A stretch of 64,000 bases of DNA from Thermincola carboxydiphila (GTDB taxonomy: Bacteria; Bacillota; Thermincolia; Thermincolales; UBA2595): the NCBI GenBank assembly GCA_016841725.1, contig JAENYP010000015.1, positions 1 through 64,000 of the forward strand. Reading direction: 5' to 3'. Shown here piece by piece: positions 556-54,832 of this stretch. How positions within the stretch are numbered: position 1 is the first letter of the stretch; each line of letters begins with the position of its first letter. A program made the translations under genes and the position numbers. A model generated the notes under the pieces. That model worked only from the letters and a program-made list of their open reading frames with translations. It was not told the origin of the DNA and did not search any database.

Positions 556-633
556 CACCCTAGGGAAAAGGAGACCAAATTGTCTCCAGATTACTGCCAA
601 CCTTATATTCTTTGAGTATTAAAATGTAACATG

Positions 634-751
634 GACAGGGGTAGATGAATTCCTCGGGCGGGCTACATCTCCGCCGGCATCCGCTCCCGCTTTGCGGTCG
701 CGGGCCGGACGGACGACAGACTCCGCCCTCCGGAACACATCTACCCCTGTC
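634..751 (+). repeat. palindromic repeat element, copy A
   Basis: A 118-bp imperfect palindrome. The ends GACAGGGGTAGATG and CATCTACCCCTGTC are exact reverse complements, and pairing continues inward through GGGCGG/CCGCCC. Inside is a conserved left strand GGGCTACATCTC, a GC-rich apical hairpin with a TTT-containing loop, and a conserved right strand GACGACAGACTCCG. Related copies lie at 42090-42200 and 54714-54832 in the same orientation. It has no coding potential of its own: the short frames crossing it are artefacts of its GC-rich sequence. It may be a MITE-like element or a structured 3'-UTR RNA. Confidence 0.9.
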
Positions 752-799
752 TTATTACATGTTTTTAGTTCAAAATTATTGACTTTGTCAGCAGTCTGG

Positions 800-823
800 A
801 GACAAAATTGTCTTCTTTTTTTT
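800..823 (+). terminator. intrinsic terminator, + strand
   Basis: Hairpin AGACAA-AA-TTGTCT is followed by TC and a run of eight T. It would end transcripts from yjbQ that read through repeat copy A. A related palindrome, GGAGACCAAATTGTCTCC, sits at 570-587 just after the yjbQ stop, without a T run. Confidence 0.7.
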
Positions 824-20274: not shown

Positions 20275-20490
20275 GCATAAAACCCCTGTGAAACAACCAT
20301 AATCCTTTCTCTCGAAGGACTGTATGGTCACTTCCAGGCTGGTATCCTGGCTCCCGGATAAACATGCCGCTTACGCCTTCCCCTTCAAACGAGTGGCATC
20401 ATGTAAGGGCACTCCCCGGTTACAGTGGCGGAGACCGCTCAGGCTTAACCTGATTCCCATTTTTTAAAAAACCCAGAAGTTACAAATATT
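20275..20490 (-). ncRNA. cobalamin (B12) riboswitch
   Basis: On the minus strand, in the leader of cobU, the B12-box AGCCAGGATACCAGCCTGG is exact at 20334-20352. The upstream core contains CCGCCACTGTAACCGGGGAG, the conserved GCCACTG element, with the flanking helices expected of the class. It ends about 95 bp before cobU and so can control the whole late cobalamin operon by terminator or ribosome-binding-site occlusion. An expression platform helix is not obvious to me. The 3' boundary is approximate. Confidence 0.95.
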
Positions 20491-20504
20491 TTTTTGTGAT
20501 TTCA

Positions 20505-21594: not shown

Positions 21595-21781
21595 TTATTC
21601 CTGCACCATTGGCTCCGGAAATGACCGGGGAATATGGTGAGGTGTTGTACAAGATTTTCCTTGCACTGCCGCCGCTATAAGTCTTGCTGCAAATCACCGG
21701 CAACAAGGCAGGGAGTCCCCGCATGTCCGAAGATGGCGAAAGCCGCCGGTCATTTCCGGGAGTCAGCCTGAGCAGGAATAA
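21595..21781. other. 187-bp structured non-coding element with terminal inverted repeats
   Basis: Bounded by TTATTCCTGC and its exact complement GCAGGAATAA. The arms continue inward (about 34-36 bp each) and include a perfect 14-bp pair, CCGGAAATGACCGG with CCGGTCATTTCCGG. The interior has several small hairpins: a stem GTACAAG/CTTGCAC, a stem CTTGCTGC/GCAACAAG with one mismatch, and on the + strand a GGC-GAAA-GCC tetraloop hairpin at 21735-21744. It begins at the nucleotide after the hypE stop codon. No coding frame is evident. It may be a MITE or a structured RNA; I do not recognise it as a known riboswitch class. Confidence 0.8.
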
Positions 21782-42089: not shown

Positions 42090-42200
42090 GGGGGAGATGT
42101 GTTCTTCCGGCGGGCTACGTCTCAACCGGTCCATAACCCGCTAAAAGCGGGTTATGGACCGGTTGACGACAGACACCGCCTTTCAGAACACATCTCCCCC
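42090..42200 (+). repeat. palindromic repeat element, copy C
   Basis: A 111-bp element. The outer arms GGGGGAGATGTGTTCT and AGAACACATCTCCCCC are perfect complements. The conserved internal strands are GGGCTACGTCTC and GACGACAGACACCG. The apical stem AACCGGTCCATAACCCGCT is a perfect 19-bp hairpin with loop AAA, and its sequence differs from that of copies A and B while the flanking frame is shared. Confidence 0.93.
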
Positions 42201-42251
42201 TCTGTGATTAAAAACGGAACCCATCTGCCACTATGCGTTTGATAGCGGAAA

Positions 42252-52596: not shown

Positions 52597-53610
52597 CTAG
52601 TGCTGTCCCGCTGCACCAAGAGCCAGCCTCATAGACTGACGGTAATCATAGGAATTGATGATTCCATTAACCACTCCGGCAGTGAAAATATCAACAGCCC
52701 GCCTGTCCCGGATTTTCTGACCGGGATGCAGCGGAACAGAGACGGAACCCTCTTCTCCAACCATGACAACCCCCAGTTCAGGTAAGACAACAACTACTTT
52801 TCCAACCCCGGTTTCAGCAATCTGCCGGGCAGCCTCCAGGCCGTCATCGAGGGTTTTTATCTTACACTTACAAATCTCCTCTGCAGTATCCTGTGTCATT
52901 ATTACAATATCGAACATTTCAAGTTTTTGATAACAAGATTTCTCCCGAATCTCACCGTTAAATTTAAAACAAACGGGAACTCCGGCCGCAGCCGAAAGTT
53001 CACTTATGTAACTGACTGCAGCCTCAGGAATACCGGAATCAATGATCACCATTCTGCAGTTATTGATAGTGACATCAATGCTCTGCAGCCTCTCTTCCGA
53101 AAGCATGTCTGCGGCCCGCCCGTCAGATATTTCAGCAGATTGGCCCTGGTCAACAAAAGTAACTCTCCGGGGTGTGGGAAACTGGTCCTGAATTAGAAGG
53201 AGCCTGGTATCCAATCCTTTTCTACTCAGTTTTTCCCGTATCATGTTACCATAATCATCTCTTCCGATAACACTTACGGGAAGAGCAGAAATATTCTGTG
53301 CCGCCAGGTGGAGAGATATATTATAAGCAGGGCCCCCTGGAAGAATATCGATTTCTGCTGCGGAATGACCGGCATCGGTTGTTATCGCAGATATTTCGAC
53401 AAAAATTCTGCCTATCACCAGCACTCCGGTCCGGTCATTGAACACATAGCCCCGGCCCAGGATATATCCCTTCCTGATCAGGTTGGAAATATGTACTGCC
53501 GCTGCGGATCTGGATATTCCCAATACCCGGGCCAGGTCATCCTGTGCTATCATAGGGTCGTTTTTTAATATTTTCAGGATTTCTTTTTCCCGTTCCGTTA
53601 TTTTACTCAT
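52597..53610 (-). CDS. PfkB carbohydrate kinase fused to an N-terminal HTH
   Basis: A 337-residue protein. Residues 1-55 form a winged HTH (DDLARVLGISRSAAAVHISN) and residues about 60-330 a ribokinase-type PfkB domain, with GGPAYNISLHLAAQ near the N-terminal substrate site and RRAVDIFTAGVVNGIINS at the C-terminal site. The last motif lacks the usual DTxGAGD glycine/Asp (here DIFTAGV), so catalysis may be changed or the domain may sense ligand. The gene is divergent from the SIR2-like gene. GGAGG precedes ATG 53610. Confidence 0.85.
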   Translation of the reverse strand: MSKITEREKEILKILKNDPMIAQDDLARVLGISRSAAAVHISNLIRKGYILGRGYVFNDRTGVLVIGRIFVEISAITTDAGHSAAEIDILPGGPAYNISLHLAAQNISALPVSVIGRDDYGNMIREKLSRKGLDTRLLLIQDQFPTPRRVTFVDQGQSAEISDGRAADMLSEERLQSIDVTINNCRMVIIDSGIPEAAVSYISELSAAAGVPVCFKFNGEIREKSCYQKLEMFDIVIMTQDTAEEICKCKIKTLDDGLEAARQIAETGVGKVVVVLPELGVVMVGEEGSVSVPLHPGQKIRDRRAVDIFTAGVVNGIINSYDYRQSMRLALGAAGQH

Positions 53611-53623
53611 AAAGAGCCTCCGT

Positions 53624-53635
53624 AAACAATTGTTT
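53624..53635. promoter_or_regulatory. palindromic operator candidate before the HTH-PfkB gene
   Basis: AAACAATTGTTT is a perfect 12-bp palindrome 13 bp upstream of the start codon, between promoter and ribosome binding site of the HTH-PfkB gene. Autoregulation is inferred. Confidence 0.5.
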
Positions 53636-53737
53636 GGTTGTCTTTATGGGTGCCAACAAAAGTATATCAAACTATATTTTTTAGGTCAAGGTATAAAGAA
53701 ACTGTATTTGTTTCAACCTAATGCCAGGAGGTTTGCT

Positions 53738-54712
53738 ATGAACTGCGTTTTTGTCCTTGGTTCAGGTTTTTCTTCAGATGCGGGCGCTCCCCTTACCGGA
53801 ACTGCTTTAGGGAAAATCTTTCACCAGGGTCGGGTCACCCGGCAGCTTTCAGAATTAAAATCATATATCAGCGACTTTCTCTACCAGGGCAGGTCTGATT
53901 GGATTAATGCTTCAAGCCTTGAAGAAATCTTAAGCAGGCTGGATATTATCAGACACTATAAACCTTATCCCCATGTTGATTATGATGAAGTTATCTATTT
54001 TGAAGAATTGCTGCTGAAAGAGTTCATCAGACTGCTCAGTCCTGACCAAACCAACTATCTGGAAAAGTCGTACCAGATATTTGCGGGTATCCTTAAAGCC
54101 GGTGATTCGATAATTACATTTAACTATGACCTTGTTATAGAAAACCTGTTAAGTGTTTACGGAAATGGTTTCCATTACCCCGAACTTTCCATGTGTAAAA
54201 ACAGAGCCTCCTGCGCCGGGGTTTTTAAGCTGCATGGTTCCATAAATATGTATTATTGCCCATTCTGTGGACAGATATACCGTTTTCCGGAATCTGTCAC
54301 CAGCCATCCCCTGCCCGGGGCATCCGGAAACAAGAATGACACCACGGCACTTTTAAACTGCCTGAACTGTTCCCGGCAGGGTAAAAACATACCACTCAGG
54401 CACTTTATAATTGCTCCTACTCTTTTTAAGTCTTACTCCCTGCCAACACTGCGCAGCCTGTGGTTCAGCGCTCTGAAAACCCTGGCTGAGGCGGCGGAAG
54501 TTTTTTTTATCGGTTATTCACTTCCTCCGGCTGATATACTTTCATACCAGTTGTTTGACTTTGCCGCAAGACTGTCCTGCCTTGAACAGAGGGTTTTCCT
54601 TGTCAATGGCCGGGGCAAACCGGCTAAGAGGTTTAAACAACTATATGGGGACTCTGTCTGTGATACAGGAATGACCTTTGCAGAGTGGACCGAAAGTAAA
54701 AAATTGCAATAA
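53738..54712 (+). CDS. SIR2-like domain protein with a zinc-finger pair
   Basis: A 324-residue SIR2-like protein. NAD-binding motif VLGSGFSSDAGAPLTG at the N terminus, ITFNYDLVIENLL in the middle, KLHGSINMYY, a zinc site of CPFCG and CLNCS, and FIGYSLPPADILSYQLF near the C terminus. Start ATG 53738 has AGGAGG. SIR2-like domains often act as NADases in anti-phage systems (Thoeris, DSR), but also as deacylases; here no defence partner adjoins. A longer frame from 53483 overlaps the HTH-PfkB gene and is not used. It is followed at once by palindromic element copy B. Confidence 0.88.
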   Translation: MNCVFVLGSGFSSDAGAPLTGTALGKIFHQGRVTRQLSELKSYISDFLYQGRSDWINASSLEEILSRLDIIRHYKPYPHVDYDEVIYFEELLLKEFIRLLSPDQTNYLEKSYQIFAGILKAGDSIITFNYDLVIENLLSVYGNGFHYPELSMCKNRASCAGVFKLHGSINMYYCPFCGQIYRFPESVTSHPLPGASGNKNDTTALLNCLNCSRQGKNIPLRHFIIAPTLFKSYSLPTLRSLWFSALKTLAEAAEVFFIGYSLPPADILSYQLFDFAARLSCLEQRVFLVNGRGKPAKRFKQLYGDSVCDTGMTFAEWTESKKLQ

Positions 54713-54713
54713 A

Positions 54714-54832
54714 GACAGGGGCAGATGTATTCCTCCGGCGGGCTACATCTCCGCCGGCGGCCGCTCCCGCTTTGCGGGTCGCGGGCCGGACGGACGACAG
54801 ACTCCGCCTTCCGGAATACATCTACCCCTGTC
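54714..54832 (+). repeat. palindromic repeat element, copy B
   Basis: A 119-bp element, close in sequence to copy A: outer arms GACAGGGGCAGATG and CATCTACCCCTGTC, GGGCTACATCTC left strand, an apical GC-rich stem around CCCGC-TTT-GCGGG, and GACGACAGACTCCG right strand. It starts two bases after the SIR2-like stop codon and ends about 80 bp from the ispH stop, so it lies in the shared 3' region of two convergent genes. Confidence 0.93.

Follow-up and report, generated by a model that had tools for sequence, protein, structure and literature searches.

IS1272, a member of the IS1182 family, takes stem-loops as its targets and replaces them on insertion; its authors also drew a hypothetical pathway in which the ends join at the 5′ feet of the stem-loop, with duplication of the entire structure as the outcome (PMC5678879, Fig 13 pathway b). 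The elements described here resemble IS1272 in that the target stem-loop is recognised by structure rather than by sequence, and in that near-gene insertions lie just downstream (PMC5678879). They differ in that IS1272 encodes a transposase, removes the stem-loop and makes no duplication, whereas here the element is gene-less and duplication of the whole stem-loop is the rule (15 of 17 copies). Prokaryotic MITEs are short, non-coding and intergenic, carry terminal inverted repeats (TIRs), occur in many copies, duplicate their target and fold stably (PMC10969869). The present elements share these properties, with a target duplication of variable length, but no parent IS was found for them, the duplication of 16-38 bp corresponds to the target hairpin, and the palindrome, which includes a conserved loop of mismatches, takes up almost the entire element. 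REP/RAYT systems are likewise built on intergenic palindromes with a conserved mismatch, but the elements here are much longer, duplicate their target and occur in several carriers without a Y1 helper. Finally, Streptococcus pneumoniae has the SPRITE, RUP and BOX repeats, small hairpins dispersed through the genome that occur in clusters and can be inserted within each other, with SPRITE resembling terminators (PMC3049150, via PMC10969869); duplication of a whole terminator stem-loop is not mentioned in the descriptions consulted.

The window analysed here comprises 64,000 nucleotides of the Thermincola carboxydiphila genome (contig JAENYP010000015.1). A sequence-only reading had picked out three intergenic palindromes in it, all in one orientation, and we recovered each of them at the positions originally assigned (A, B and C in Table 1), with the outer arms, the internal strands GGGCTAC[A/G]TCTC and GACGACAGAC and a 3-nt loop common to all three. 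Single-strand folding against dinucleotide shuffles gave z-scores of -9.0, -13.5 and -9.0. The unit of 111-119 bp proposed for them exists as a core, but the full unit is longer, copy A being a palindrome of ~210 bp set between terminator hairpins. Taken together, the elements probably form a non-autonomous, MITE-like foldback family of Thermincola's order, whose young copies duplicated the whole terminator stem-loop at insertion.

Table 1. Positions of the elements and their associated features in the window
Feature	Position	Strand	Basis
Element A, core as delimited in the sequence-only reading	634-751	+	sequence, folding
Element A, full-length young copy, ~210-bp palindrome, terminal inverted repeats AGATTACTGCCAACC... 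/ ...TTGACTTTGTCAGCAGTCT	588-797	+	
Left terminator stem-loop copy at element A, GGAGACCAAATTGTCTCC, A-run to its left	570-587	.	
Right terminator stem-loop copy at element A, GGAGACAAAATTGTCTTC, then T-run 816-823	798-815	.	
Element C (AACCGG apical subfamily), a type I core whose arms have been corrected until fully complementary	42090-42200	+	
Element C, conserved internal loop, 5′ strand GGGCTACGTCTC	42112-42123	+	
Element C, conserved internal loop, 3′ strand GACGACAGAC	42165-42174	+	
Type II 3′-arm remnant GGAACCCATCTGCCACTATGCG beside element C; whole type II element here in G002	42214-42239	+	
Element B, type I core, directly 3′ of the stop codon of ORF 53483-54712	54714-54832	+	

A family restricted to the order of Thermincola

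The exact pattern of the two internal strands matches 16 times in the 3.88-Mb T. carboxydiphila genome, and its reversed control not at all. A covariance model built from these 16 matches gave 107 matches there at E ≤ 0.1, many places scoring on both strands because the elements are palindromes; after merging of the strands about 72 distinct sites remain, of which the weakest may include chance matches. The sequence-only reading had proposed such a search of this genome and its relatives, and many further copies with covarying arms were indeed found. Carriers number 10 of 61 relatives, every one in Thermincola's order, and the nine besides T. carboxydiphila hold 10-54 sites each (with 33, 10 and 11 matches in G001, G004 and G006). 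Among 299 genomes of the phylum the carriers were the identical ten, and the model found no element in the other 289. Across 84,980 species the exact pattern matched only Thermincola and one Armatimonadetes contig; the latter was rejected as a family member, being a chance match within a coding repeat without palindromic arms. No match was found in plasmids, phages and viral contigs, and a literature search returned no description of such elements. They are thus a real family, previously undescribed within the literature searched, and restricted to the order of Thermincola.

The element cores measure 51-190 nt and contain no gene. Type I elements have the outer arms GGGGTAGATGTATTCC / GGAACACATCTACCCC and the internal-loop strands GGCTACRTCTC / GACGACAGAC; the corresponding loop strands are GGCTACAACTC / GACGTCAGAC in type II and GGCAACGATTC / GACATCAGAC in type III, and further variants occur in other genera. 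The youngest subfamily, which includes copy A, forms a palindrome of ~210 bp with the ends CAGCTTATTGACAAA.../...TTTGTCAGCAGCCTG; these terminal inverted repeats are imperfect, and the youngest copies reach CAGCTTATTGACAAACC... / ...GACTTTGTCAGCAGCCTG. Variants of about 175 nt hold a nested palindrome in the apex, those of 70 nt resemble deletions between CTCCGCC repeats, and those of 51 nt consist of the outer arms only. In four copies (L219, L220, L221 and C25:500393) a GGGGCCCCC...GGGGGGACCCCC palindrome has taken the place of part of the internal loop's 5′ strand; this subfamily retains the young terminal repeats, and L221 has stem-loop repeats on its flanks. Type II elements of other genera (L052, L055, L060 and L064) possess an outer inverted repeat AGGGAGTGTCCCATAAGTAAA, and L064 has an A-run and a T-run outside, as if it had replaced a terminator hairpin.

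Pairing is strongly maintained across the family. When 62 sequences from ten genomes were aligned with MAFFT, standard pairs occupied 96.3% of the cells over the 26 pairs scored, and 20 of the 26 pairs showed changes on both sides. The covariation score was 0.492; shuffling lowered it to 0.167, and sliding the pairs never gave more than 0.112. The mismatches C.C, W.A, A.G, C.A and R.C of the internal loop recur in nearly all of the 62 sequences (C.C in 56, A.G and C.A in 59 each), each strand being conserved. The 2-bp helix adjoining this loop appears as UC/GA, AC/GU, AU/AU, CC/GG and GC/GC.

Terminator stem-loops as duplicated targets

By crude ORF calls, 71 element sites fall between divergent genes once, between convergent genes 21 times and between tandem genes 49 times, and hence lie 3′ of genes. 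Outside each end of the young copies stands a stem-loop specific to the locus. Seventeen TIR-bearing copies were taken from T. carboxydiphila and G002; in 15 of them the whole terminator stem-loop (16-38 bp) is directly repeated on both flanks, and the left-right direct repeat outscores all 272 mismatched left-right pairings. The repeats fall exactly on the stem-loop predicted for the empty site as reconstructed. Because hairpins are self-complementary, it is chiefly the loop that tells a direct copy from an inverted one. The direct fit was the better one in 10 of the 15 copies, tied in 1 and slightly lower in 4, and the direct orientation is clear where the loops are asymmetric (L207, L211, L065, L047, L016 and L221).

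Empty sites were found in both directions of the species pair formed by T. carboxydiphila and G002, the comparison being clean at three loci and the empty site decayed at others. At C39:68858, hairpin-element-hairpin in T. carboxydiphila corresponds to one hairpin in G002; conversely, GTGGCAGGAACATACCTGCCAC (22 bp) and GAGAGTGGCAGTTCATTTTGATATGAACTGCCACTCTC (38 bp) are single hairpins in T. carboxydiphila and flank an element on both sides in G002. At a third locus of this kind, L203/L223, the single hairpin has diverged, and G001 is without the element at about ten loci occupied in T. carboxydiphila. Such orthologous empty sites show insertion and make it unlikely that the hairpins on the flanks belong to the element itself. 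The element is therefore mobile: it is multicopy and intergenic, its presence varies between sister species, and its young subfamily targets intrinsic terminators and duplicates their stem-loops. Since the whole stem-loop is repeated at filled sites and single at empty ones, the target-site duplication is defined by the structure of the target, without a fixed length. C19:170575-170628 is a deletion derivative that retains both element ends with some 10 bp between them; the match at C25:335602 is a fragment from the 3′ side of an element, behind a gene. The older copies L003, L006 and L014 count against the explanation favoured here, in that their left flank is copied inverted rather than direct, with the gene end included, which simple transposition does not give.

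A terminator scan of copy A found a terminator-like site on each hairpin copy, the left one (570-587) reading on the minus strand and the right one (798-815) on the plus strand. The A-run, which serves the minus strand, stays with the left hairpin and the T-run with the right one, so that duplication of the whole hairpin should leave termination intact in both directions. If so, insertion would spare terminators and come at low cost to the host.

Remodelling of the palindromes at position 42,090

The apical stem of element C had been read as a perfect hairpin of unrelated sequence, exchanged for the imperfect stem of the other two copies with its pairing retained. The sequence does have relatives, however, since the 3′ strand of the stem matches L040, L038, L003 and L008, which make up the AACCGG subfamily. 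The apical strands are AACCGGTCCATAACCCGCT / AGCGGGTTATGGACCGGTT, of which the 3′ half resembles AGCGGGTTGTGGACCGGTT of L040 (local score 19 vs 11 for the 5′ half), and the 5′ half complements the element's own 3′ half at every position. Template switching between palindrome arms has been described as producing perfect arms and a flipped spacer with no need for selection (PMC8604942), and the perfect stem of element C is as expected from such correction between imperfect arms. Rearrangement in place is also seen at C24:54874, where the element is inverted in G002 relative to T. carboxydiphila, and at window site B, where it is inverted in G002. The 42,090 locus itself has been struck and rearranged repeatedly, since in the window a type I element comes first, with the 3′ remnant of a type II element behind it, and in the G001 and G002 orthologs a type II element precedes the 3′ remnant of a type I element. 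The inverted left flanks of L003, L006 and L014 are again what template switching would be expected to leave.

The pairing of the exchanged stem is thus real, but it does not prove selection on structure, as had been argued: template switching gives the equal result, and selection on a structured RNA is not needed to explain it. More generally, covariation in palindromic repeats can stem from DNA template switching and not from RNA selection alone. A second foldback repeat family also has a copy in the window, at 21605-21765 (GCTCCGGAAATGACCGTGGCATATGGTGA ... TCACCATATGATATTAACGGTCATTTCCGGAGTC); this repeat is 91.6% identical over 83 bp to a copy beside L008 and has many copies in G001 and G002.

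A proposed insertion mechanism, alternatives and candidate helpers

In the insertion mechanism that we envisage, the cruciform of a terminator would be recognised as the target and cut at the feet of its stem, and gap repair would then copy the full stem-loop onto each side of the element. Gap repair of the whole stem-loop would give a duplication equal in length to the hairpin and would keep the A-run and the T-run each beside a hairpin. The ends of the elements are not precise, a point against the model, and deviate by as much as ~9 nt. Once inserted, the palindromes probably decay or are remodelled by replication template switching, yielding perfect arms, in-place inversions and the nesting of other palindromes, and apical deletion between short direct repeats would give rise to the 70-nt and 51-nt forms. 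A helper would act in trans and might recognise the folded element strand through its mismatched internal loop, a guess that the covarying arms and the fixed loop would fit. The detailed version, in which one enzyme cuts both strands at the feet of the extruded hairpin, the duplication matches the hairpin in length, termination is kept both ways and the element is recognised via its mismatched loop, is put forward tentatively, and we lean slightly against its holding in every part. Were the mechanism correct, these natural loci would make structure-directed transposition testable.

Other origins have to be weighed against insertion of this kind. Selection acting on a structured regulatory or 3′-UTR RNA could keep the hairpin as a terminator, RNase III site or protein-binding site while copies spread by duplication, and would account for the strong covariation (the 2-bp helix beside the internal loop included), for the loop mismatch conserved on both strands and for a position nearly always just 3′ of a gene. 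We nevertheless consider this unlikely: copies are polymorphic between sister species and have empty sites, elements have been inverted in place at C24:54874 and at window site B, the GGGGCCCCC subfamily has lost part of a loop strand yet retains its ends and, in L221, its stem-loop repeats, and template switching can preserve arm pairing by itself. An Rfam 15 scan over the elements gave no match above the gathering score and one weak chance match below the cut-off. Template switching, combined with gene conversion between palindromes, might conversely have expanded hairpin-prone terminators in place with no transposition at all; arms that pair perfectly, elements turned round in place and flanks copied in inverted form do indicate that switching is frequent here. 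Such a process is scarcely credible as the origin of the family, as it can neither put a near-identical 210-bp sequence at many unrelated loci nor leave the hairpin peculiar to each locus directly repeated on the two sides of the element, and the empty sites disfavour it. Terminators are known targets of group IIC introns, which, with element ends that vary by 0-9 nt, would suit a target-primed route in which read-through element RNA is reverse transcribed at a nicked terminator and leaves imprecise ends and variable duplications; this retrotransposition is improbable, because the young subfamily shows no poly-A or 5′ truncation pattern.

If the elements are indeed transposed, the question becomes which enzyme could move them. 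A Y1 (HUH) TnpA-REP transposase acting on single-stranded hairpins, as in REP/RAYT systems, would fit palindromic, intergenic, multicopy elements with a conserved internal mismatch, and Y1_Tnp genes are present in T. carboxydiphila and G002. However, the carriers G001, G004 and G006 have no Y1_Tnp match, the intact match in T. carboxydiphila (a 144-aa frame) spans the whole 121-position domain like an IS200-type TnpA, and the copies seen here have a target duplication, which Y1 transposition is not known to make; we regard a Y1 helper as highly improbable and have rejected it. A DDE transposase of IS1182/IS1272 type, with the elements as its MITEs, would be a specific form of the MITE-like explanation that we prefer. 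IS1272 targets stem-loops, and the joining of 5′ feet has been sketched as duplicating them (PMC5678879); type II elements of other genera carry the IS-like terminal repeat AGGGAGTGTCCCATAAGTAAA, G004 has full-length DUF772 genes, and a DUF772 remnant in G002 lies inside a type II element with CTGACGTCAGACT on either side. This form is possible but doubtful: IS1272 deletes its stem-loop whereas those targeted here are duplicated, the ends of the G002 remnant differ (GTGTGAAAACC), DDE_Tnp_1_6 has no match in G000-G003, and DUF772 has none in G000, G001, G003, G005, G006 and G009, so that both were rejected as helpers. IS1182-type genes are lacking in T. carboxydiphila, G001 and G003 and partial in G002. 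None of the three profiles is present in all carriers. The elements behave like a stem-loop-targeting transposon, and we assign them to no named IS family.

Within the T. carboxydiphila genome, a search for an autonomous relative sharing the element ends found both end patterns at element-associated places only, and the genes between neighbouring element pairs are, judged by translation, host-like and not transposases. The mobile, MITE-like option of the sequence-only reading, with mobilisation in trans, is accordingly backed by copy number, empty orthologous sites, target duplication and the gene-less element, while its Y1 helper falls and its argument from the exchanged stem is weaker than claimed.

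Several further sequences were noted along the way. The G002 remnant (L243 1297-1875, on G002:C2) is of the DUF772 (IS1182-type) class, has the ends GTGTGAAAACC/GGTTTTCACAC and is bordered on each side by the palindrome CTGACGTCAGACT. In G004, an IS1182-like gene of 523 aa (L245 1213-2877) has on its flanks the inverted repeat TAATTAGGGCCTGCTGAACAGGCG, which includes a hairpin. Elsewhere in the window, an Rfam scan placed a cobalamin riboswitch on the minus strand at 20320-20491 (93.6 bits).
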